From assembly GCA_900317855.1 (NCBI GenBank), contig ONIG01000004.1, positions 1 through 64,000 of the forward strand: a stretch of 64,000 bases of DNA. Reading direction: 5' to 3'. Each line of letters begins with the position of its first letter. Within the stretch, counting starts at the first letter, position 1. The notes beneath the pieces were generated by a model that saw only the letters and a program-made list of their open reading frames with translations, ran no database searches and was not told the DNA's origin. The translations under genes were made by a program, and so were the position numbers. The stretch comes from an uncultured Eubacteriales bacterium (GTDB lineage Bacteria; Bacillota; Clostridia; Oscillospirales; Oscillospiraceae). This document shows positions 3,912 to 41,334 of this stretch, piece by piece.

Positions 3912-5018
3912 ATGAAGCTTTCCAAATCCGGTATTTTTTTGATCGTCGTGCTCGTGATCGCCATTGGCCTCGGCGCCTGGGTCACGGTCATGACCTGCAA
4001 TGTTCTGGCGAAGGACCCCATCACACTGCCCGACCGCGGCAGCGCTGCCGGTACGCCGCAGCCGGTGCAAAACGCCGATAAGCCGAAGGAGCCGGACACA
4101 TTTGTCATCTCCATGGTCGGCGACTGCACGCTCGCCTCGATCCAGACCGGGCGCGACTTTGACAGCTATATCGATAAAAATGGGACGTCCTGGCCCTTTT
4201 CCGGCGTTGTGGAGTATCTGAGTCAGGATGAATTCACACTGGCAAACCTCGAGTGCACGTTCTCGGATGAAAAGCTCAAGTCCTCTTCCCTGTTCTACTT
4301 CCGCGGCCCGTCGTCCTATGCGGACATTCTCGTGCAGGGCAGTGTTGAATGTGTCACGCTCGGCAACAACCACACGGACGACTTTGGCGCCAAGGGCGTC
4401 ACGGACACAAAGGCTGCACTTGACGCAGTTGGTGTACCGTGGGCGGCCGCCGGGGAATCCAAGGTGGTCACGACCGAGCATGGGCTGAAGATCGGCATCT
4501 ACTGTCCGGGGTGGACCGGCCTGAGCAAGAGCAACATCACCGCCGGTATGGAGAAGCTCAAGGACGCCGGTGCGGATATCCTGATCTTCGCACCGCACTG
4601 GGGCACGGAGGGCAGCTACAAGGTAACTGCAAATCAGGAATCCTTCGCTCACGCAGCCATTGACGCGGGCGCGCACATCGTTTTCGGCACCCACCCGCAC
4701 GTCCTGCAGAAGATGGAAGCCTACAATGGCGGCTATATCTTCTACAGCCTTGGCAACTTCAGCTTCGGCGGCAACACCGCCCCGCGCGACGTGGACACGG
4801 CCATCGCGCAGGTGACCGTGAAAAAAGACGGCAACAGCTGGACCGTCGAGGGGTATGACCTTATTCCCTGCCGCCTGTCGAGCACGGACAGCAAAAACGA
4901 CTACCGCCCGCGCCCGTACAAAGAGGACGAGGAGGGCTATGCGCGTGTGCTCAGCAAGCTCGATGGCTCCTGGACCGGCAGCGACCTGAATGTGGACTAC
5001 TCGTTCATGTACCGCTGA
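3912..5018 (+). CDS. CapA-family (PGA_cap) calcineurin-like metallophosphatase, membrane-anchored
   Basis: The 368-residue product begins with a short basic n-region and one hydrophobic segment (about residues 8-30), so it is probably exported and membrane-tethered. The rest matches the bacterial CapA / poly-gamma-glutamate-synthesis metallophosphatase fold: VGDCTLA, ANLECTF, LGNNHTDDFG, APHWGTEG, GTHPHVLQ and YSLGNFSF are the successive metal-binding and active-site motifs. No other poly-gamma-glutamate genes (capB, capC) are nearby, so capsule synthesis is not supported and the substrate remains unknown. The gene stands alone behind its own promoter. Confidence 0.85.
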   Translation: MKLSKSGIFLIVVLVIAIGLGAWVTVMTCNVLAKDPITLPDRGSAAGTPQPVQNADKPKEPDTFVISMVGDCTLASIQTGRDFDSYIDKNGTSWPFSGVVEYLSQDEFTLANLECTFSDEKLKSSSLFYFRGPSSYADILVQGSVECVTLGNNHTDDFGAKGVTDTKAALDAVGVPWAAAGESKVVTTEHGLKIGIYCPGWTGLSKSNITAGMEKLKDAGADILIFAPHWGTEGSYKVTANQESFAHAAIDAGAHIVFGTHPHVLQKMEAYNGGYIFYSLGNFSFGGNTAPRDVDTAIAQVTVKKDGNSWTVEGYDLIPCRLSSTDSKNDYRPRPYKEDEEGYARVLSKLDGSWTGSDLNVDYSFMYR

Positions 5019-5038
5019 TACATAAAAGTACCAAAAAC

Positions 5039-5064
5039 GGCCATCCGTCGATCGGCGGATGGCC
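5039..5064. other. Hairpin after the CapA-like gene
   Basis: GGCCATCCG ... CGGATGGCC forms a perfect stem 20 nt after the stop codon. There is no T-run, so it is at best a weak terminator or an mRNA 3'-end stabiliser. Confidence 0.5.
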
Positions 5065-5108
5065 AAGAATATGAATAGGATGAGATTCATACGCGTCATA
5101 CGCGCAAA

Positions 5109-5798
5109 ATGCTCGCACTATTATCAGCTTTTCTATGCGTTTTATCCATGTCCGCTTGCAGCGAATCAACTTCAACCGGAATATCATCGCTAAAATTGGT
5201 TGCTTCAAGCGGGCACGTCGAGCTTGATGCGGGTGACTCTGCAAAGGGCTACTTCAAGGTCGATGGCAAAAAGGATTTCTCCATTGACGATATCGAGTTC
5301 GTAAGCTCTGACCCCGCGGTGGCAACATTCGTTTACGACGAAACTGTGCTTGACACTTGTGTTTATTACAAGATTAATGCTCTATCGGCAGGAACAGCTA
5401 CAGTTTACGCTCAAACGAAAGACGGCAGATCGAAAACGGACGAGATAACGGTCACGGTATCAGGATATATCTACAAAGTCGCTGAGTTCGAAGACACGAG
5501 CACAAGCTCTGCGGAGCGGATGACACTTCGCGTTACGGCTTCTGAGGACTACCTCTATGCAATGTCAGACGAACAGCTATCTGATATGGCGAAATTCATT
5601 GCCAGCAGCTATACTCGATCGCACAAAATAAATGCGGTTGTGGTGTATCTATATTGTGACGGAGACGACACCAACGGTGCGTTCACGATTGCTTCCTGCA
5701 CATACGCTCCGTATGGTGACATTTCAAAGGCATCGGATGTTACGGCCGGTGACTACTCATCGTTTGATTACAATGTTTATGTCAATTCTGCTTCATAG
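5109..5798 (+). CDS. Putative lipoprotein with a bacterial Ig-like (BIG2-type) domain
   Basis: A 229-residue product with a hydrophobic N-terminus and lipobox-like LSMSAC (Cys about residue 17), suggesting lipidation and surface display. Residues 30-105 (SSDPAVATF ... LSAGTATVYAQTKDGRS) look like a BIG2 Ig-like domain; the rest is unrecognised. Base composition is visibly more AT-rich than the neighbours. The assigned start is doubtful: the signal peptide from ATG 5109 has no basic n-region, while ATG 5071 or 5080 in another frame encodes MNRMRFIRVIR immediately before it, so a one-base frameshift around 5106 may have split the signal peptide. Confidence 0.65.
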   Translation: MLALLSAFLCVLSMSACSESTSTGISSLKLVASSGHVELDAGDSAKGYFKVDGKKDFSIDDIEFVSSDPAVATFVYDETVLDTCVYYKINALSAGTATVYAQTKDGRSKTDEITVTVSGYIYKVAEFEDTSTSSAERMTLRVTASEDYLYAMSDEQLSDMAKFIASSYTRSHKINAVVVYLYCDGDDTNGAFTIASCTYAPYGDISKASDVTAGDYSSFDYNVYVNSAS

Positions 5799-5828
5799 AG
5801 AGACCTATATAGGAAAGCCGAATAACAT

Positions 5829-5860
5829 AAAAGAGCCTGTCGGCATCGGCAGGCTCTTTT
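5829..5860. terminator. Bidirectional terminator
   Basis: AAAAGAGCCTG pairs with CAGGCTCTTTT across a short loop, between the lipoprotein gene and the convergent repressor gene. Confidence 0.85.
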
Positions 5861-5894
5861 CATCAGACAGTATCATCACGAAAATCATTTCTTT

Positions 5895-6629
5895 TCAGTC
5901 CTGCGGCAGCGGGATCTTGCCCTTGAGCAGCACCTTGCCAAAGCAGCAAATGGTGATGCCGGACGAGGCGCTGATCGTCACATCCGCGTCCTTACGCGCA
6001 CGGTTGAGGGAGAACAGATAGACATTGCCGAGATAGTCCTGGCAATACTGCTTGCATTTCATGTCGCCGTCCACAAAGAACAGACCGATGTCCCCGTCGC
6101 AGATCGTGGCACCGCGCTTGACGAGCACGATCGAATCGTCGTGAATATAAGGCTCCATACTGTCGCCTGCGATGCGAACCGCGAAATCCGCCTCCGAATC
6201 TGCCGCGACGGTATAATCCTCATAGTCGTCCCCAAAGGCGGGCGAGGCATAGCCGGCTGCGGCCGGCGTCATATACAGCGGAATGATCTTATTTTGCTCC
6301 GGCTGCTGCTCGGCAGCCTGCAGACGCGCGCATTCGGCGTCCAGCAGCTGCAGGGTCACGAGGCGTCCGTGGTCATCCAGGCGGCGCAGCTTCCAGAGCG
6401 TCTCCCACTCCTCGGGCGTCGGCTGGTCGGTGCTGCCGGTGCCGCAAAATGTCTCCAGCGGGACATGCAGTGCGTCGCAGATGCGCAAAAGCAGTTCAAA
6501 ATCGATCTTCATATTGTCGCGCCGGATGATGCTGTAGAGCGTTTGCGCGGGCACCTGGATCTGCCGCGCGAACTCATTGACCTTGATCTCGCGTTCATCC
6601 AACAGTTTTTTGAGCGTGGTTCCGATCAT
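5895..6629 (-). CDS. HTH (XRE) transcriptional regulator with C-terminal S24/LexA-like peptidase domain
   Basis: The 244-residue protein joins an N-terminal helix-turn-helix (about residues 5-60; NEFARQIQVPAQTLYSIIR) to an S24 LexA/CI-type domain. AGDSMEP carries the presumptive nucleophile Ser and DMKCKQY the general-base Lys, so self-cleavage or phage-repressor-like regulation is possible. I start at ATG 6629, since AAAGGGG lies 7-8 nt upstream, rather than at the upstream in-frame GTG 6638. No phage genes adjoin it; it faces the aminotransferase gene across an AT-rich 200-bp interval, so it may control that gene or itself. Confidence 0.88.
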   Translation of the reverse strand: MIGTTLKKLLDEREIKVNEFARQIQVPAQTLYSIIRRDNMKIDFELLLRICDALHVPLETFCGTGSTDQPTPEEWETLWKLRRLDDHGRLVTLQLLDAECARLQAAEQQPEQNKIIPLYMTPAAAGYASPAFGDDYEDYTVAADSEADFAVRIAGDSMEPYIHDDSIVLVKRGATICDGDIGLFFVDGDMKCKQYCQDYLGNVYLFSLNRARKDADVTISASSGITICCFGKVLLKGKIPLPQD

Positions 6630-6743
6630 GCTGAACACCCCTTTGCCTCATCATCATATCGAATTTTTCGCTCTATGTCAAGAAATAAAAACAGCATTAA
6701 AAATTATGAAAACGAAAATTTCTTTCAGAATTCGTGGAAACGG

Positions 6744-6772
6744 TTTACTTTTCTATGAAAATGTGCTTAAAT
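6744..6772 (+). promoter_or_regulatory. Putative promoter of the aminotransferase gene
   Basis: TTTACT (6744-6749), 17-nt spacer, TTAAAT (6767-6772), in an AT-rich divergent region; the -10 match is modest. Confidence 0.45.
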
Positions 6773-6835
6773 AAGTCGAGATGTAATCGATGATTTTGTT
6801 CATCATTACCTGCAAAATAAGGAGGAAATTTAGAA

Positions 6836-8023
6836 ATGGTACAGTTTTCCAGCAGAATGAGTCAGCTGAAGGGTTCCGCGATCCGCGAGCTCCTTGCTCT
6901 GGCCAACAAACCGGAAGTGCTCTCGTTCGCCGGCGGCATGCCCGCTCCGGAGCTCTTCCCCGTTGACAAGATCAAGGCTGCGACCGACGCTGTCCTTGAT
7001 GAACAGGGCAAGGTCGCGCTCCAGTACTCCAGCACCAACGGTTTTGAGCACTTCCGTCAGCAGATCGCCGATCGCATGGAAGCGAAGCTCAATATCAAGA
7101 CCAGCGCTGATAACATCCTCGTGACCTCCGGTTCTCAGCAGGGTCTGGATTACTCGGCACGTGTTTTCTGCAACAAGGGCGATGTCGTCATCATCGAGAG
7201 CCCGTCCTACCTTGGCGCTCTGAACGCTTTCAAGGCTTGCGAGCCGAACTTTGTCGCCATCCCCACCGACGGCGACGGCATGATCATGGAAGAGCTCGAG
7301 AAAGTGCTTGCCACGACCGAGAACGTCAAGATGATCTATGTCATCCCCGACTTCCAGAATCCGTCCGGCCGCACCTGGCCGCTCGAGCGCCGCAAGCAGT
7401 TCATGGACATCATCAATAAGTACGAGATCCCCGTCGTTGAGGATAATCCCTACGGCGAGCTCCGCTTTGAAGGCGAGTACCTGCCCGCGCTCAAGAGCAT
7501 GGACACCAAGGGCCTCGTTGTCTTCCTCGGCACCTTCTCCAAGATTCTGGCGCCCGGCTACCGTCTGGGCTGGGTCTGCGCCGATGGCGAGATCCTCCAG
7601 AAGTACAACTTCCTCGCGCAGGCCGCATCTCTGCAGGCTTCCACCGAGGCACAGCTCGTTGTCTCCAAGTTCATCGACATGTTCGACCTCGACGAGCACG
7701 TTGCCACCATCCGTGCGTGCTACAAAAAGCGCCGCGACGTCATGATAGCGACCATGGAGCGCGAGTTCCCGCCCGAGGCGAAGTTCACGCACCCCAACGG
7801 CGGCCTGTTCACTTGGGTCGAACTGCCGGAGTACATCAACACCAACGTGATGGCGAAGCAGTGCCTGGCGCGCAACGTTGCCTACGTCCCGGGCGACGGC
7901 TTCTTCCCGGATGCTGGCCACAACAACTGCATCCGCCTGAACTATTCCTGCATGCCCGAAGAGAAGATTGAAAAGGGCATGACCATTCTGGGCGAGGTCA
8001 TCAAGGCCAACCTCAAGAAGTAA
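6836..8023 (+). CDS. PLP-dependent class I/II aminotransferase (2-aminoadipate / multi-substrate type)
   Basis: The 395-residue fold-type I enzyme transfers amino groups using pyridoxal phosphate. FAGGMPAPELFP, TSGSQQGLDY, PDFQNPSGRTW, EDNPYGELRF and FSKILAPGYRLGW (the PLP-binding Lys) are the motifs seen in the LysN/MocR-type aminotransferase subgroup. There is no N-terminal GntR domain, so it is an enzyme rather than a MocR regulator. AAGGAGG lies 10 nt before ATG 6836. Substrate is not determinable from sequence. Confidence 0.9.
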   Translation: MVQFSSRMSQLKGSAIRELLALANKPEVLSFAGGMPAPELFPVDKIKAATDAVLDEQGKVALQYSSTNGFEHFRQQIADRMEAKLNIKTSADNILVTSGSQQGLDYSARVFCNKGDVVIIESPSYLGALNAFKACEPNFVAIPTDGDGMIMEELEKVLATTENVKMIYVIPDFQNPSGRTWPLERRKQFMDIINKYEIPVVEDNPYGELRFEGEYLPALKSMDTKGLVVFLGTFSKILAPGYRLGWVCADGEILQKYNFLAQAASLQASTEAQLVVSKFIDMFDLDEHVATIRACYKKRRDVMIATMEREFPPEAKFTHPNGGLFTWVELPEYINTNVMAKQCLARNVAYVPGDGFFPDAGHNNCIRLNYSCMPEEKIEKGMTILGEVIKANLKK

Positions 8024-8034
8024 TTTCCCGATAT

Positions 8035-8069
8035 AAAAAGACCGTGTTCTCCGGAACACGGTCTTTTTC
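8035..8069. terminator. Bidirectional terminator between aminotransferase and HAD genes
   Basis: AAAAAGACCGTGTTC and GAACACGGTCTTTTT form a perfect stem with T-runs on both strands. Confidence 0.88.
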
Positions 8070-8071
8070 TT

Positions 8072-8893
8072 TCAATGCAGAACGTGCGCATACAGGAACG
8101 CCGCCACACCGTCGCGATCATTGGCTTCGGTCACATAGTCACAGACCGCGCGCACCTCTGATGCGGCATTGCCCATGGCAACGCTCGTACCGGCAGCACG
8201 CAGCATGCGCAGATCGTTGGAGCTGTCGCCGAAGGCGATGGTATCCGCAGCCGGGATGCCCAAGTGCTGCGCAAGCGCCAGCAGCGCCCTGCCCTTGTCC
8301 GCATTGGCCGCATTGAGCTCCAAATTGTTGCGGAAGGATGACGTGACCAGGATCTCCGGGAACGCCGCCGCGATCTCCGCCCGGGCGGTCTCCCGCTCGG
8401 CCATGTCACGAAAGCAGAGCTGCACCTTCTGGACCGGTTGGCCGTTTTTGCGTAGGAATGCCTTCAGATCATCCACCGGGGCGCGGGTCCGCCGCAGGAG
8501 CGTGACTACCTCCTCATCGGAATTATAATAGCGCACCCGCTCCAGAAACGACCGATCCACCCAGCCGGTGTCGTTCCAGTAGCAGTCATACATCGCATCA
8601 TAACGCCCGGCAAAATCGAGCAGACGCAGGCAGGTGTCGAGCGCGATCTCCGCGCGCAGGAGCGCCTCCCCGGTGCGCGTGTCCGAAACCTTTGCGCCGT
8701 TGATGGTAATGGCGTAGTGCAGAAACGGGAACGCCATCACCTGCTCCGGGATCGCCCGGAGGGCGCGTCCGGTCGCGGGGACGATCACGTGCCCCTGCCC
8801 GGCCGCAAGCGAAAGCGCGGCAAAATTCCGCTGGGAAACGACCTTATCCGAATTGAGCAGAGTCCCGTCCAGATCCAGAGCGATCAGCTTCAT
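8072..8893 (-). CDS. Cof-type HAD-IIB family hydrolase
   Basis: A 273-residue phosphatase-like protein. LDLDGTLLNSDK holds the nucleophile Asp of motif I; TGRALRAIP is the motif II region; GDSSNDLRML is the motif IV metal-binding site near the C-terminus. The cap type (large insert between motifs) fits HAD-IIB Cof-like sugar-phosphate or nucleotide phosphatases. ATG 8893 is preceded by AGGAGG; the longer in-frame extension upstream lacks a ribosome site. Monocistronic. Confidence 0.9.
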   Translation of the reverse strand: MKLIALDLDGTLLNSDKVVSQRNFAALSLAAGQGHVIVPATGRALRAIPEQVMAFPFLHYAITINGAKVSDTRTGEALLRAEIALDTCLRLLDFAGRYDAMYDCYWNDTGWVDRSFLERVRYYNSDEEVVTLLRRTRAPVDDLKAFLRKNGQPVQKVQLCFRDMAERETARAEIAAAFPEILVTSSFRNNLELNAANADKGRALLALAQHLGIPAADTIAFGDSSNDLRMLRAAGTSVAMGNAASEVRAVCDYVTEANDRDGVAAFLYAHVLH

Positions 8894-8912
8894 AAGCACC
8901 TCCTGAAATAAG

Positions 8913-8943
8913 AAAATCCTGTGTTCAAAGAACACAGGATTTT
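8913..8943 (-). terminator. Terminator of the Met-Glu-Val tRNA operon
   Basis: AAAATCCTGTGTTC pairs with GAACACAGGATTTT; on the minus strand it follows the tRNA-Val gene by 3 nt. Confidence 0.85.
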
Positions 8944-8945
8944 GC

Positions 8946-9022
8946 TGGTGGAGACTAATGGGCTCGAACCATCGACCTCATGCGTGTGAAGCATGCGCTC
9001 TAACCAGCTGAGCTAAGCCTCC
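8946..9022 (-). tRNA. tRNA-Val (CAC)
   Basis: Complete 77-nt cloverleaf with CCA encoded; anticodon loop TTCACAC gives CAC. Last of three tRNAs in the operon. Confidence 0.95.
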
Positions 9023-9025
9023 AAA

Positions 9026-9100
9026 TGGTGACCCGTACGGGACTCGAACCCATGTTACCGCCGTGAAAGGGCGGTGTCTTAACCACTTGACCAACGGGCC
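9026..9100 (-). tRNA. tRNA-Glu (TTC)
   Basis: 75-nt cloverleaf, encoded CCA, anticodon loop CTTTCAC. Separated from tRNA-Val by 3 nt. Confidence 0.95.
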
Positions 9101-9105
9101 TAAGA

Positions 9106-9130
9106 TGGGATGCTGCGGGTGCAGCATCCC
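9106..9130 (-). other. Hairpin between tRNA-Met and tRNA-Glu
   Basis: GGGATGCTGC and GCAGCATCCC form a 10-bp stem in the short spacer. It lacks a T-run, so a processing signal or partial terminator within the tRNA operon is more likely than full termination. Confidence 0.5.
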
Positions 9131-9132
9131 CT

Positions 9133-9209
9133 TGGTAGCGGCACCTGGATTCGAACCGGGGACACTTCGGGTATGAACCGAATGCTCTGGCCAACTGAGC
9201 TATGCCGCC
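9133..9209 (-). tRNA. tRNA-Met (CAT)
   Basis: 77-nt cloverleaf with encoded CCA; anticodon loop TTCATAC. Acceptor pairing is complete, so it is not the initiator; a lysidine-modified tRNA-Ile2 cannot be excluded by sequence. Confidence 0.9.
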
Positions 9210-9248
9210 ATGTTGTTCGCGCCTCAGCAACTGCCAAACGCAAGGAGC

Positions 9249-9277
9249 ATTGTACCAAACAATGCTCCTGTTGTCAA
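9249..9277 (-). promoter_or_regulatory. Promoter of the Met-Glu-Val tRNA operon
   Basis: Consensus TTGACA (9272-9277) and TACAAT (9249-9254) with a 17-nt spacer on the minus strand. Confidence 0.9.
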
Positions 9278-9296
9278 TAAGTTTTGCGGCGAATTT

Positions 9297-9992
9297 TTAA
9301 TTTTTTTGCGGCAGATAGTCCAGCGGCGACACGCTCTGACCGGAGGCCGCAACCGACAGATGCAGGTGGCTCTCCTGCGCCGACTCACAGCCGGCGGAAT
9401 CACCGACCGAGCCGATGGTATCCCCAACGGAAACCTGATCGCCGACATTCACCGTCGGGATCGACTCAAGGTTGGCGTACGTGCACCGCAGACCGTCCTC
9501 CCGCTCGGTCACAACAGTCGTGCCATACAGATCGTCATAATACACCTTCGTGACCGTGCCGGACGCCATGGCCGAGACAACTGTGCCGTATTTGGCCTCG
9601 ATGTCAATGCCGTCATGCGTGCGCCAGTCCGACATGGTCTCGTCATAGGCCAGCGCCGTCATGGCATACGGCCGCAGTACGGCGCCGTCCACCGGCCAGA
9701 CATACTTGTCCTGCGCCGCCGTCTCAGCGGCGTCCTCGACCGGAATTTCCGGCTCCGGCGTCATCTCCGGCGTGGGCACCGGCGTCGCCGGCACGGGGAT
9801 TGTCGGCGCGGGCGTGACTTCCAGCACCGCGTTCTGATCGCGTCCGTCATCCATAGTCTTCGTACCCGACAGCAGTGACCAGGCGGAAACGCCGATCACC
9901 GCTGCGCACAGGACGAGGGCTATGTAGAAGCCCTTGCCTTCGATGAAGCGTACGGATCTCTTTTCCGGTTTCTTGTCCTTGTTCGGTTCCAT
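9297..9992 (-). CDS. spoIIQ: M23 (LytM-type) peptidase, SpoIIQ-like sporulation protein
   Basis: A 231-residue protein with a cytoplasmic basic N-terminus, one membrane segment (about residues 25-45), a Pro/Glu-rich linker and a C-terminal LytM domain. THDGIDIEA and SHLHLSV supply the zinc ligands (HxxxD and HxH), both retained, as in clostridial SpoIIQ and unlike the degenerate Bacillus protein. The YVWPVDGAVLRPY lead into the domain is also SpoIIQ-like. In spore formers SpoIIQ sits in the forespore membrane and pairs with SpoIIIAH across the engulfment space. ATG 9992 is preceded by GGAGGG. A generic M23 endopeptidase is the alternative. Confidence 0.75.
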   Translation of the reverse strand: MEPNKDKKPEKRSVRFIEGKGFYIALVLCAAVIGVSAWSLLSGTKTMDDGRDQNAVLEVTPAPTIPVPATPVPTPEMTPEPEIPVEDAAETAAQDKYVWPVDGAVLRPYAMTALAYDETMSDWRTHDGIDIEAKYGTVVSAMASGTVTKVYYDDLYGTTVVTEREDGLRCTYANLESIPTVNVGDQVSVGDTIGSVGDSAGCESAQESHLHLSVAASGQSVSPLDYLPQKN

Positions 9993-37247: not shown

Positions 37248-37276
37248 TTTACAACGGGAACCTACCGTGGTATATT
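37248..37276 (+). promoter_or_regulatory. Promoter of the leader-rtcB-HTH-tRNA array operon
   Basis: TTTACA (37248-37253), exact 17-nt spacer, TATATT (37271-37276). A small hairpin (GGGC-AGC-GCCC) lies before the leader ribosome site. Confidence 0.8.
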
Positions 37277-37320
37277 GGCGTCAGTAAAAACAAGGGCAGC
37301 GCCCGGAAAGGAAAAAAGAC

Positions 37321-37449
37321 ATGATTGCAGTTCGTTTCTCTTTGTCTTGGAAAAAGCACATGGAACAGCTCCAGTCCAGCTTTAATTATCTGGACCGTCA
37401 TTTCACGCGCTCATATAAGGCAAAGAAGAATCGTAATGTGATCTCATAA
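37321..37449 (+). CDS. 42-residue leader peptide upstream of rtcB
   Basis: ATG 37321 follows AAAGGA with 8-nt spacing; TAA at 37447. Codons 6-28 hold only array amino acids apart from one Arg (codon 26): Phe, Ser, Leu, Trp, Lys, His, Met, Glu, Gln, Asn, Tyr, Asp, i.e. all twelve amino acids of the downstream tRNA array and nothing else. Codon choice also follows the array: adjacent AAA and AAG for the two Lys tRNAs; UUG, CUC and CUG for three different Leu tRNAs; UCU/UCC and AGC for the two Ser tRNAs; UGG, AUG, CAC/CAU, GAA, CAG, UUU/UUC, AAU, UAU, GAC for the rest. Thus the peptide looks built to sense tRNA supply, not to act as a protein. Confidence 0.85.
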   Translation: MIAVRFSLSWKKHMEQLQSSFNYLDRHFTRSYKAKKNRNVIS

Positions 37450-37511
37450 CCCGCCCGGGGAATATCAGATAGATTCTGGCCGCTTGCCTTGTATGAGGTG
37501 AGCGGCTTTTT
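37374..37511 (+). promoter_or_regulatory. Transcription attenuator with mutually exclusive terminator and antiterminator
   Basis: Terminator: 37479-37490 pairs with 37495-37506 (12 bp with three wobbles, GTAT loop) followed by T5. Antiterminator: 37410-37423 pairs with 37484-37497 (14 bp, a single G-U), which uses most of the terminator's 5' arm and loop, so both cannot form. The 5' antiterminator strand lies in leader codons 30-35, just after the sensing codons. A pause-type hairpin, GTCCAG/CTGGAC at 37374-37395, lies inside the sensing stretch. The arrangement matches trp/his-type attenuation: ribosome stalling at scarce codons would expose 37410-37423 and permit read-through. Confidence 0.85.
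37479..37511 (+). terminator. Attenuator terminator upstream of rtcB
   Basis: GCCGCTTGCCTT / GAGGTGAGCGGC stem followed by TTTTT; lies between the leader stop and rtcB. Confidence 0.85.
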
Positions 37512-37537
37512 CACGTCCATTTATAGGAGAAAACAAC

Positions 37538-38737
37538 ATGATGGAAATTAAGGGGCAAGTGAATACCGCGGTCTGTTTTGCTAAGGTCATCGAGGACGAG
37601 GCTATTGAGCAAATCCGCCGGATGTGTGATTACGAGTTTACGGCAGGCAGCCAGATCCGCATCATGCCTGACGTCCATGCCGGCAAGGGCTGCACGATTG
37701 GAACGACCATGACCGTGAGGGACAAGGCAGTTCCCAACATCGTCGGCGTGGATATCGGTTGCGGCATGTACACCGTGAATCTTGGCAAAGTCGAAATCGA
37801 TATGGAACAGATGGACGCCGCCGCGCACTTCATCCCCTCCGGACTGAACGTATGGGAGGGGCGGAAGGAGCACTTCGACCTGCTTGGCTTACGCTGCTAC
37901 CGCGGGCTGAAGGACGCCAAGCGTCTCGAACGCAGCCTCGGCACTCTCGGCGGAGGCAACCACTTTATCGAGATCGACCAGGCCGCAGACGGAACGAAGT
38001 ACTTGGTGATCCACTCGGGTTCCCGCAACCTGGGCAAACAGGTGGCCGAGTTCTACCAGCGCCTTGCCATCGAACTGAACAAGGGCAAGGAGGAGTACTT
38101 TGCCAAGCGTGATGCGCTGATTGCAGAGTACAAAGCTGCCGGCCGCCGGAATGAGATCCAGGATGCGTTGAAGGCGCTCAAGTGGGAAGCACGTGAGGCA
38201 ACGATCCCGGAGGACCTCTGCTTCGTATACGGCCAGTACCTCGAAGACTATCTCCACGACGTGGAGATCTGCCAGCGCTTTGCCCGCCGGAGCCGTGAGC
38301 TCATGGCTGAGATCATCCTGCAGCGCCTTGGCATCGAAGCGGTTGACGCCTTCCACACGATCCACAACTACATCGACACGGACGAGATGATCCTCCGCAA
38401 AGGCGCCATCGCGGCGCACGAGGGCGAAAAGGTACTGATCCCGATCAACATGCGTGACGGCAGCGTGCTTGCCATCGGCAAGGGTAATCCCGACTGGAAC
38501 TATTCCGCTCCGCACGGTGCAGGCCGAATCATGTCCCGCACCGCGGCAAAGGAGAATCTCGATCTGGACGAGTACCGCCGTGAAATGGAGGGCATCTACA
38601 CCACCTCGGTCAACGAGGCCACGCTGGATGAGGCCCCCATGGCGTACAAATCCTTATCCGACATTATCGACGTGATCAGCGAGAGCGTCGATGTGATTGA
38701 AGTACTGAAACCTATCTATAACTTTAAGGCCAACTGA
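37538..38737 (+). CDS. rtcB: RtcB family RNA ligase
   Basis: GTP- and Mn2+-dependent ligase that joins RNA ends bearing a 2',3'-cyclic phosphate (or 3'-phosphate) and a 5'-OH, the ends left by anticodon nucleases. 399 residues with all family motifs: PDVHAGKGCTIG, GVDIGCGM (metal), GGGNHFIE, HSGSRNLG, FHTIHNYID and APHGAGRIMSR with the guanylylated His. It ends about 40 nt before the HTH gene and the tRNA array, on the same strand, and is controlled by the upstream attenuator. A repair role for tRNAs follows from family knowledge and from this context. Confidence 0.97.
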   Translation: MMEIKGQVNTAVCFAKVIEDEAIEQIRRMCDYEFTAGSQIRIMPDVHAGKGCTIGTTMTVRDKAVPNIVGVDIGCGMYTVNLGKVEIDMEQMDAAAHFIPSGLNVWEGRKEHFDLLGLRCYRGLKDAKRLERSLGTLGGGNHFIEIDQAADGTKYLVIHSGSRNLGKQVAEFYQRLAIELNKGKEEYFAKRDALIAEYKAAGRRNEIQDALKALKWEAREATIPEDLCFVYGQYLEDYLHDVEICQRFARRSRELMAEIILQRLGIEAVDAFHTIHNYIDTDEMILRKGAIAAHEGEKVLIPINMRDGSVLAIGKGNPDWNYSAPHGAGRIMSRTAAKENLDLDEYRREMEGIYTTSVNEATLDEAPMAYKSLSDIIDVISESVDVIEVLKPIYNFKAN

Positions 38738-38782: not shown

Positions 38783-39037
38783 ATGAATCGAATACCGGTC
38801 ATCGACATGACCGCAACGGGTATCAACATCACCCGCCTTCGCGTAAACGCCGGGTTGACGGTGAAGGATCTCCAGGACATCTTCGGGTTCAGCACCCCGC
38901 AGGCCATCTACAAGTGGCAGCGCGGAACGGCACTCCCGACCGTTGACAACCTTGTCGTCCTTGCCGCAGTGTTCGGCGTGAAGATCGATGACATTCTTAT
39001 TTTTCAAGGATGCGGAGTGATCCAAATTTCCGCATAA
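38783..39037 (+). CDS. HTH (XRE-type) protein between rtcB and the tRNA array
   Basis: 84 residues. NAGLTVKDLQDIFGFSTPQAIYKWQRG is a clear helix-turn-helix, followed by LPTVDNLVVLAAVFGVKIDDIL as in many small Clostridial XRE proteins. GGAGCG precedes the ATG; only 32 nt separate the stop from the first tRNA. It may regulate the operon or simply be a mobile passenger. Confidence 0.85.
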   Translation: MNRIPVIDMTATGINITRLRVNAGLTVKDLQDIFGFSTPQAIYKWQRGTALPTVDNLVVLAAVFGVKIDDILIFQGCGVIQISA

Positions 39038-39719: not shown

Positions 39720-39729
39720 AAGCAGATAT

Positions 39730-39818
39730 GCAGGATGATGTCAGCCGGCGCTGACACCGGTCTAGAAAACCGAGGGCAACAGAGATGTTGTGGGGATCGA
39801 CACCTCCGTCCTGCGCCA
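39730..39818 (+). tRNA. Non-canonical tRNA-Ser-like (AGA) with 8/4 acceptor/T geometry, array position 9
   Basis: 89 nt. Acceptor GCAGGATG (39730-39737) pairs 8 bp with CGTCCTGC (39807-39814), leaving a 4-bp T-stem GGGG/CCTC around loop ATCGACA; a 7/5 fold would put a T-C mismatch in the T-stem. The D-stem is 6 bp (TGTCAG/CTGACA, 6-nt loop), the variable arm is long (CAAC/GTTG) and the discriminator is G. These resemble tRNA-Sec or the published 8/4 serine tRNAs. Anticodon loop CTAGAAA gives AGA at 39764-39766, so serine UCU with possible inosine. Confidence 0.8.
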
Positions 39819-40711: not shown

Positions 40712-40738
40712 TTAGCACTCTCTCTTGACGAGTGCTAA
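40712..40738. promoter_or_regulatory. CIRCE operator (HrcA binding site) of hsp20
   Basis: Perfect TTAGCACTC - 9 nt - GAGTGCTAA, the canonical HrcA operator. It overlaps the -35 region of the hsp20 promoter, as expected for heat-shock repression. Confidence 0.95.
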
Positions 40739-40878: not shown

Positions 40879-41334
40879 ATGTTGTACATGCCTAGTATTT
40901 TTGGTGAGGATCTGATGGATCGTTGGTTCGATGACATGGATCGTGAATTTGGCCGGATGGAGAAACCGCTTTACGGTCACAATGCCAAGAACCTGATGAA
41001 GACGGATGTGCGGGAGCACGACGACAGCTATGAAGTGGATATCGAGCTTCCTGGCTTCCACAAGGATGAAGTTAAGCTCAGCCTGGAGAACGGGTATCTG
41101 AACATCACGGCGGCGAAAGGCCTTGACAAGGATGAGAAGGACAAGAAGACCGGTAAGCTCATCCGTCAGGAGCGTTACGCCGGCAGCATGAGCCGTAGCT
41201 TCTATGTTGGCGAAGATGTCACGGAAGAGGACATCAAGGCCAAACTGGAACACGGTATTCTGTCGCTGCAGATTCCTAAGAAGGAAGCAAAGCCGCAACT
41301 GCCTGAAAAGAAATACATCGCGATCGAAGGGTAA
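40879..41334 (+). CDS. Hsp20/alpha-crystallin small heat-shock protein
   Basis: 151 residues. The alpha-crystallin domain runs from about residue 40 (VREHDDSYEVDIELPGFHKDEVKLSLENGYLNITA) to LEHGILSLQIPKK, and the C-terminal tail has the IAI-like motif used in oligomerisation. ATP-independent holdase. Preceded by AAAGGAGG. CIRCE control ties it to the host HrcA heat-shock regulon. Confidence 0.96.
   Translation: MLYMPSIFGEDLMDRWFDDMDREFGRMEKPLYGHNAKNLMKTDVREHDDSYEVDIELPGFHKDEVKLSLENGYLNITAAKGLDKDEKDKKTGKLIRQERYAGSMSRSFYVGEDVTEEDIKAKLEHGILSLQIPKKEAKPQLPEKKYIAIEG

Follow-up and report, generated by a model that had tools for sequence, protein, structure and literature searches.

It is very probable that the short reading frame ahead of rtcB in the stretch of DNA analyzed here (64,000 nt from an uncultured Oscillospiraceae bacterium; hereafter, the window) is a ribosome-mediated transcription attenuator that samples, through its codons, the tRNAs encoded in the same operon, such that lack of any one of them would open the operon. 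The observed basis for this reading lies in the sequence of the leader and its operon, in a conserved pairing, in the tracking of arrays by leader codons across loci, and in the position of the codons that track.

A leader and a spare tRNA array in one operon

The operon consists of a promoter, a 42-codon ORF, a terminator, and then rtcB, an HTH gene, and a tRNA array (Table 1), a layout that an earlier note made from the letters alone had described and that was borne out. The short ORF carries a ribosome site and lies downstream from the promoter, both judged by consensus matches. Promoter-like sites (at least 9/12, 15–140 bases upstream) accompanied 88 of 92 leaders of the first set described below, versus 20 of 92 base-shuffled sequences (one copy each). 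The array, with 18 called tRNAs, is dense enough to class as a tRNA array unit.

Table 1. Features of the leader-controlled operon in the window
Feature	Position	Strand	Basis
Sigma-70-type promoter, TTTACA-17-TATATT, TG before -10	37248–37276	+	Predicted, consensus match
Leader ORF, 42 codons, ATG start, MIAVRFSLSWKKHMEQLQSSFNYLDRHFTRSYKAKKNRNVIS	37321–37449	+	ORF call; 11 homologous proteins
Putative sensing zone, codons 6–28	37336–37404	+	Array-set residues 22/23, all 12 amino acids
Segment predicted to pair with 37416–37430 (antiterminator strand) on the ribosome-free leader	37336–37349	+	MFE of 37277–37515
Antiterminator 5′ strand, codons 30–35	37410–37423	+	Covariation, 53 rows
Antiterminator 3′ strand, within terminator 5′ arm and loop	37484–37497	+	Covariation, 53 rows
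Intrinsic terminator, stem 37478–37507 plus T run	37478–37511	+	Pairing in 53 rows; fold
rtcB, predicted RNA ligase (PF01139)	37538–38737	+	Domain match
Small HTH_3 (XRE-type) protein gene, commonest partner of leaders	38783–39037	+	Domain match
tRNA array: 18 ARAGORN tRNAs plus odd Ser(AGA)-like gene at ∼39728–39818; 12 amino acids	39070–40655	+	

Codons 6–28 of the window leader read F S L S W K K H M E Q L Q S S F N Y L D R H F. As had been claimed, 22 of these 23 residues belong to the set served by the array (E, Q, W, D, L, S, K, N, M, H, F, and Y), and no member of this set of twelve is missing from them; Gly, Pro, Cys, and Thr are absent from codons 6–28 and from the array alike. We estimated how often chance would yield a 28-codon zone in which 22 residues of a 23-codon stretch are hits and none of the twelve amino acids is lacking, with the set fixed by the array and the choice of stretch allowed for. 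The probability was ∼1e-4 under the leader family's own composition (200,000 draws), and the composition of six window ORFs gave no such zone in 200,000 draws.

The finer proposal, that individual codons match individual array tRNAs, held in part. Three Leu codons (TTG, CTC, and CTG) are indeed found in the zone, but the array has four Leu tRNAs, and TTA is unused. Gln is encoded solely by CAG and Glu solely by GAA, which leaves tRNA Glu(CTC) without a strict cognate codon. The second of two proposed Ser tRNAs (AGA) is present, but its gene is odd: a divergent tRNA-like cloverleaf whose variable arm is long and whose anticodon was read from the fold, since neither ARAGORN nor Rfam called it. 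In one homologue of the window leader, protein P0001, 25 residues are duplicated in tandem and in frame, a stretch that spans most of the sensing zone and the antiterminator strand; this duplication may be an assembly artefact.

The host draft genome (97.4% complete) has 41 other tRNA genes that cover all twelve array amino acids, which makes the array spare. Fifteen of the 18 called array tRNAs share their anticodon with a host tRNA, at 64%–78% identity, and Gln(CTG), Glu(CTC), Leu(AAG), and the odd Ser(AGA) were not found among the other tRNAs of this 97.4%-complete draft. The array holds two A34 tRNAs, the Ser(AGA)-like one and Leu(AAG), which is unusual for bacteria. An RtcB relative occurred in none of the nine other genomes of the genus (57%–97% complete); the search covered 149 genomes, and 28 of them, counting the window's own, had one. 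Judged from this patchy occurrence and the divergence of the tRNAs, the unit looks laterally acquired; together with the absence of an RtcB relative from those nine genomes, a tyrosine recombinase gene that adjoins the operon (PF00589; 41710–42702, − strand) hints that the unit is mobile.

Two further neighbors deserve mention. Directly behind the tRNA array lies a perfect inverted element (TTAGCACTC-N9-GAGTGCTAA, 40712–40738), which we take to be CIRCE, upstream of an ORF (40879–41334) that is presumably of the Hsp20 type. A small AAA ATPase gene (PF13304; 36456–37214) sits just upstream of the promoter. We considered it as a member of the system and dropped it: a relative was found upstream of one of 92 other leaders (L122, 57%), a count that is a lower bound because 40 of the 92 loci have just ∼290–540 bases of upstream sequence.

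Leaders and arrays across homologous loci

A genome scan by RtcB alignment gave 80 loci, mostly from Lachnospiraceae and other Clostridia by title. A leader ORF of 36–54 codons was assigned in 52 of them by reading ORF lists with the arrays in view, and the usual terminator in these loci had the form ACCGCTTATCTTGTATGAGATAGGCGGT-T(n); six more loci matched the covariance model with no ORF assigned (L084, L099, L115, L124, L128, and L151). That model (R1), built from 46 leaders (the window, 43 genome loci, and two viral contigs), had matches in 47 of 397 genomes of one family (E ≤ 1e-6), in 19 of 392 genomes of the order, and in 33 of 79 genomes of one genus. Of the 24 places matched in a class search, 19 were weak; the eight regions fetched (L320–L327) lacked rtcB, HTH gene, and tRNAs, and the weak matches were treated as false. 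We used 40 of 54 fetched regions, dropping those eight and six others with no clear ORF or a near-duplicate (L281, L289, L296, L305, L307, and L313). Another locus was dropped as a duplicate (L399, of L117, whose contig is equally long), and three were left out at contig ends (G543, G896, and G1251). One fetched stretch (L279) also carries an azaaromatic (yjdF) riboswitch at 1052–1176, on the other strand and kilobases from its leader–rtcB operon.

The collection comprised 131 leaders, 93 in a first set and 38 in a second. All except three (L288, L312, and L419) were followed by rtcB (77), an HTH gene (121), or tRNAs (79). The ligase gene is optional: 41 loci had tRNAs without rtcB, 39 had rtcB without tRNAs, and 10 had the HTH gene alone. 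We defined arrays as ARAGORN calls chained over gaps of up to 700 bases; they lie between terminator and rtcB or behind the HTH gene. Their range from 1 to 28 tRNAs in the 79 loci allowed leader and array to be compared, and the 52 leaders with no detected array imply that an array is not the sole thing such a leader can serve. Array-less leaders with rtcB may serve repair alone.

Viral-class contigs carry the leader as well, with rtcB and HTH gene in L001, L002, and L045 and with HTH gene and tRNAs in L344–L347; the latter four were kept outside the 131 and outside the statistics. Among 80 loci kept from an RtcB scan of viral contigs, an HTH relative adjoins rtcB in three (L001, L002, and L045); the upstream stretch was read in nine of the 80, and the same three had a leader and no tRNA called. 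An HTH-based viral scan gave 21 loci, in which L344–L347 had leader, HTH gene, and tRNAs, L348 was L045 again, and L349–L362 had no tRNA and no leader within 700 bases. The phage- or prophage-like leader–rtcB–HTH operons L001, L002, L045, and L147, without tRNAs at default thresholds, share a conserved leader of their own (LVLPE..Y..LSC.HSTK) and a different terminator/antiterminator sequence in the same layout.

Across these homologous loci, leaders follow their own arrays. In the combined set, thinned to 49 loci, the fraction of zone residues in the locus's own set was 0.344 versus 0.275 with arrays swapped (z = 8.5), and 194 of 203 array amino acids were present; the tail of the leader gave z = 0.4, and the other two frames gave z = −1.0 and −0.4. 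The two sets differ in how leaders were chosen. First-set leaders were hand-picked with the arrays in view; the criteria applied to the ORF lists were position, ribosome site, and pairing. In the 48 array loci of this set, 177 of 180 array amino acids occurred in the own zone, the misses being Trp in L106, Cys in L135, and His in L292; after thinning to 44 loci, the matching fraction was 0.300 versus 0.236 permuted (z = 7.9), with a flat tail (z = 0.2) and flat +1 and +2 frames (z = −0.8 and 0.1). All 38 second-set leaders were picked by a rule written before their sequences were seen. Here, 31 loci had arrays, and 179 of 190 array amino acids were present (examples of the 11 missing are His in L430 and Ala, Asp, Gln, and Val in L433), with z = 2.5–3.4 for the zone. 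In this set alone the tail tracked the array about as well (z = 2.5–3.6), as expected if close relatives share both zone and tail.

Contrasts were also drawn between 36 pairs of sister loci. An amino acid for which the two arrays differed in tRNAs was commoner in the zone of the holder in 60 cases, rarer in 24, and tied in 82 (p = 1e-4), with corresponding counts of 30:15:121 for the tail (p = 0.036) and commoner-to-rarer counts of 37:39 and 45:35 for the two other frames. Scored by pair, the zone was right in 23, wrong in six, and tied in seven, as compared with 20, six, and 10 for the tail and 9:15:12 and 15:12:9 for the frames. On their own, sister contrasts thus separate zone from tail poorly; the thinned permutation and the positional profile do separate them. 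Since the tail tracks the array in the second set and leans the same way in the sister contrasts, part of the leader–array signal may be shared ancestry.

At the level of single tRNAs, the own zone offered a cognate codon to 209 of the 225 array tRNAs in the first set; averaged per locus, the fraction was 0.968, compared with 0.818 after swapping. Amino acids outside the array were present in most zones too. We also looked for a preference among isoacceptors beyond the amino acid (Ser AGY vs. TCN, Ile ATA, and Leu boxes), which was not clear-cut except in L346.

The excess matching occupies a limited stretch of the leader. It starts ∼24 codons before the antiterminator and ends four codons before it (65 loci with distinct leaders), with per-bin z of 2.3, 4.6, 3.4, 4.2, 5.6, 3.6, and 3.5 and none above 1.8 elsewhere. 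After thinning of these to 44 loci the values were 3.4, 5.0, 3.1, 3.8, 4.5, 3.1, and 2.4, and the highest value elsewhere was 2.0, at +9 to +11. A ribosome covers ∼12 bases beyond the first base of the A-site codon; with this footprint, a stall at any position up to codon 26 of the window leader leaves 37410 free. The match therefore ends about where stalling would no longer be useful, and in both the 65 and the 44 thinned loci the matching codons are placed where a stalled ribosome would leave the antiterminator free.

Several loci illustrate the match. On the viral contig L346, codons 7–25 of the second leader (8130–8267) read CKQHRHEEKRFWFCQERQF, with 19 of 19 residues in the set of their own 12-tRNA array (Trp, two Gln, two Lys, two Glu, Phe, Cys, two Arg, and His; read by hand) and a cognate codon for 12 of 12 tRNAs; with loci and offsets roughly corrected for, the chance of such a match is ∼5e-6. 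This contig holds two leader–HTH–array units (4487–9893), with a third tRNA cluster upstream; the second HTH-like ORF, from ∼8356, was read by eye, and the called tRNAs, taken together, leave just Ala and Val uncovered. The L303 array (Tyr, Cys, two Gln, and Ser) goes with the leader zone NCYSYQYEQQLVQEYEQSLVC, and the zone of L407, a locus with 15 tRNAs for 11 amino acids, has 26 in-set residues out of 29. At the upper end, L106 and L121 have 28 tRNAs for all 20 amino acids, and their leaders hold 19 and 20 of the 20 in 29–30 codons. Their relative L155 also has 20 of 20, though its array calls cover nine. The complete sets of L121 and L155, in 30 and 29 codons, each have a chance of P = 3e-5 to 2e-4, before allowing for 131 leaders. 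Within one genus, His stands at two leader places in loci with tRNA-His (L405 and L437) and Tyr stands there in loci without it (L404 and L426), a pattern that L430 and L436 of the same genus contradict.

Two exclusive pairings

The antiterminator helix proposed earlier, of 14 bp with one G–U pair (37416/37491), stood up to scrutiny: some of its bases also belong to the terminator stem, and homologous leaders keep the pairing while changing in both strands. In a 53-row alignment, 81.5% of antiterminator cells were paired, compared with 34%–51% in slid controls, and 49 cells were double changes, compared with 8–33 slid and 21 shuffled. Shuffles reached the five antiterminator measures in 0, 1, 0, 4, and 0 of 500 cases, and 95.9% of terminator cells were paired. 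These figures are for all 53 leaders that had a terminator call at that stage; a first alignment of 46 of them (leaving out L087, L091, L121, L131, L138, L146, and L152) had the same outcome and similar figures, except for further pair types, reached in 122 of 500 shuffles. Among 127 leaders for which a terminator was called, a search over whole leaders placed the antiterminator strand at codons 27–42 in 119. Homologous leaders thus have an intrinsic terminator before the first structural gene (53 rows) and a conserved antiterminator that excludes it and has one of its strands within the leader ORF, as an attenuator should.

Predicted folds of the window RNA agree with a switch. With the antiterminator strand free, the antiterminator formed (−36.6), and with the strand masked, the terminator formed (−34.8). 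On the whole unoccupied leader, the segment at the start of the zone pairs with the antiterminator strand and the terminator forms. Untranslated classical leaders lead to termination, and in this the window leader resembles them. The duplex concerned has −18.2, versus −10.4 ± 2.4 for codon-shuffled copies (family mean z = −1.2).

In a snapshot before the terminator 3′ arm is made, the antiterminator was the MFE fold in all 81 loci examined, which are first-set loci chosen for pairing at codons 27–42, versus 24.4 with the strand shuffled. In the complete RNA with the strand freed, it was the MFE fold in 15 of the 81, and the window leader also fails under the criterion and start used; readthrough must therefore be kinetic. 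We rejected equilibrium folding (15/81) as weak proof of a switch and used the snapshot with its shuffled control instead. A T-box reading found no support, with no Rfam match at 37248–37537 at gathering thresholds and the signal sitting in the reading frame.

Mechanism, alternatives, and related systems

From these observations we infer translation of the leader, stalling, readthrough, repair, and tRNA-cleaving enzymes as the trigger. RNA polymerase is predicted to start at the promoter at 37248–37276 and a ribosome to translate the leader. With all sampled tRNAs charged and intact, the ribosome would pass codons 30–35 and mask the antiterminator strand; the exclusive pairings and their covariation predict that the terminator would then form and transcription stop. 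Were any sampled tRNA missing, the positional signature suggests that the ribosome would stop at about codons 6–26, with its footprint ending before 37410, and that the freed antiterminator would form as its 3′ strand is made, allowing readthrough into rtcB, the HTH gene, and the tRNAs. Going by the protein and tRNA families, RtcB would rejoin cleaved tRNAs, and the divergent spare tRNAs would stand in for them. The usual cause of depletion would likely be tRNA-cleaving toxins in phage, plasmid, or rival conflicts. Our guess for the HTH protein is that it represses the leader's promoter. More broadly, and with less assurance, we find it fairly probable that such leaders are evolvable test strips of the tRNA pool, in which a single passage of a ribosome samples as many as all 20 amino acids within ∼29 codons and the codon list changes as genes enter and leave the array; the switch would then be a mobile, general alarm against tRNA-cleaving defences and toxins, found in bacteria and on viral-class contigs alike.

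Uncharged tRNA would stall the same ribosome, so a classical sensor of amino-acid starvation, in which tRNA damage is incidental, is mechanically indistinguishable here. We regard it as unlikely, given that the operon encodes tRNAs and an RNA ligase and no biosynthetic enzymes, and that the amino acids sampled correspond to its tRNA genes rather than to any one pathway.

Slightly less likely again is a general translation-stress attenuator that any slowed ribosome would open (through antibiotics or ribosome damage), with the codons irrelevant. Such behavior has been reported for the bmrB leader of bmrCD in Bacillus subtilis, which, like the leader proposed here, opens by attenuation when translation is hindered and shares the layout of leader, terminator, and antiterminator found in attenuators induced by translation inhibitors; unlike it, bmrB answers to ribosome-targeting antibiotics, and the abstract draws no link to tRNA genes (PMC4191407). 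The 39 loci with leader and rtcB and no tRNAs would fit a general alarm, as would the response of the Anabaena trn operon to translation antibiotics summarized in PMC10272220. Against it, codon content tracks the array, in the coding frame, at the stall positions that leave the antiterminator free.

We think it very improbable that the leader senses no tRNAs and that shared ancestry, codon usage, or base composition produced the match incidentally. The loci are related, one genus has many near-identical leaders but differing arrays, and the tail tracks too in that genus and in sister pairs; yet thinned and permuted tests leave the +1 and +2 frames flat, the positional limits persist after thinning, and the dissimilar loci L346, L303, L286, and the window each match their own array. 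Just as little credence goes to a functional small protein (a toxin, an antitoxin, or an HTH partner) with a secondary RNA switch, for although the short ORF is conserved with its ribosome site and has an HTH gene nearby, the peptide differs greatly from one locus to the next under a preserved RNA pairing, and P0001 bears its in-frame duplication of 25 residues.

The preferred reading, a leader that samples the tRNAs of its own operon, has precedents for its parts. Classical attenuators (trp, his, thr, and ilv) have a translated leader, stall codons upstream of the antiterminator strand, and an exclusive antiterminator and terminator, and they sense one to three amino acids of the controlled pathway. 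The leaders described here are alike in their predicted translation, putative stall codons, and exclusive pairings and differ in sampling up to 12 or all 20 amino acids, a set that follows the operon's tRNA genes. A paper on ilvBNC (PMC11857589) belongs to the literature on the classical type.

For the operon as a whole, one near counterpart is the Anabaena trn operon, which is described as a silent spare array of 26 tRNAs induced by translational stress, with rtcB under the same repressor, TrcR (PMC10272220). The likeness lies in the spare array and rtcB; there, in contrast, the repressor is a ribbon-helix-helix protein and rtcB lies at another locus, and no word beginning "leader" occurs in the main text of that paper. 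The regulator-like gene of the window operon encodes an HTH_3 protein, not one of the ribbon-helix-helix (TrcR) type. Extra-tRNA arrays also make up the mycobacterial tRNA array units (PMC5966550, PMC12803027), and extra tRNAs of phages and plasmids have been proposed to counter tRNA-depleting defences, including anticodon nucleases (PMC10264068); unlike here, no leader or attenuator is mentioned in the listed titles and abstracts of these three sources. In Escherichia coli and Salmonella, RtcR turns rtcB on when tRNAs are damaged, as related in PMC10272220, though as a protein activator and not as a translated RNA switch. The RtcB of jumbo phages is another neighbor in the literature. Among the matches listed from the titles and abstracts of the open-access literature, which leaves most subscription papers outside, none described tRNA genes preceded by an attenuator with a leader peptide, or any leader that samples many tRNAs.

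If the proposed mechanism is true, bacteria and mobile elements would survey much of the tRNA pool through a single short reading frame, and their response would be repair and spare tRNAs. Attenuation would become an OR gate over many inputs, re-programmable by single codon changes. The tRNA arrays, so far putatively anti-defence, would gain a built-in sensor, and their purpose would become directly testable, since the leader of each operon would list the tRNAs that its owner expects to lose.
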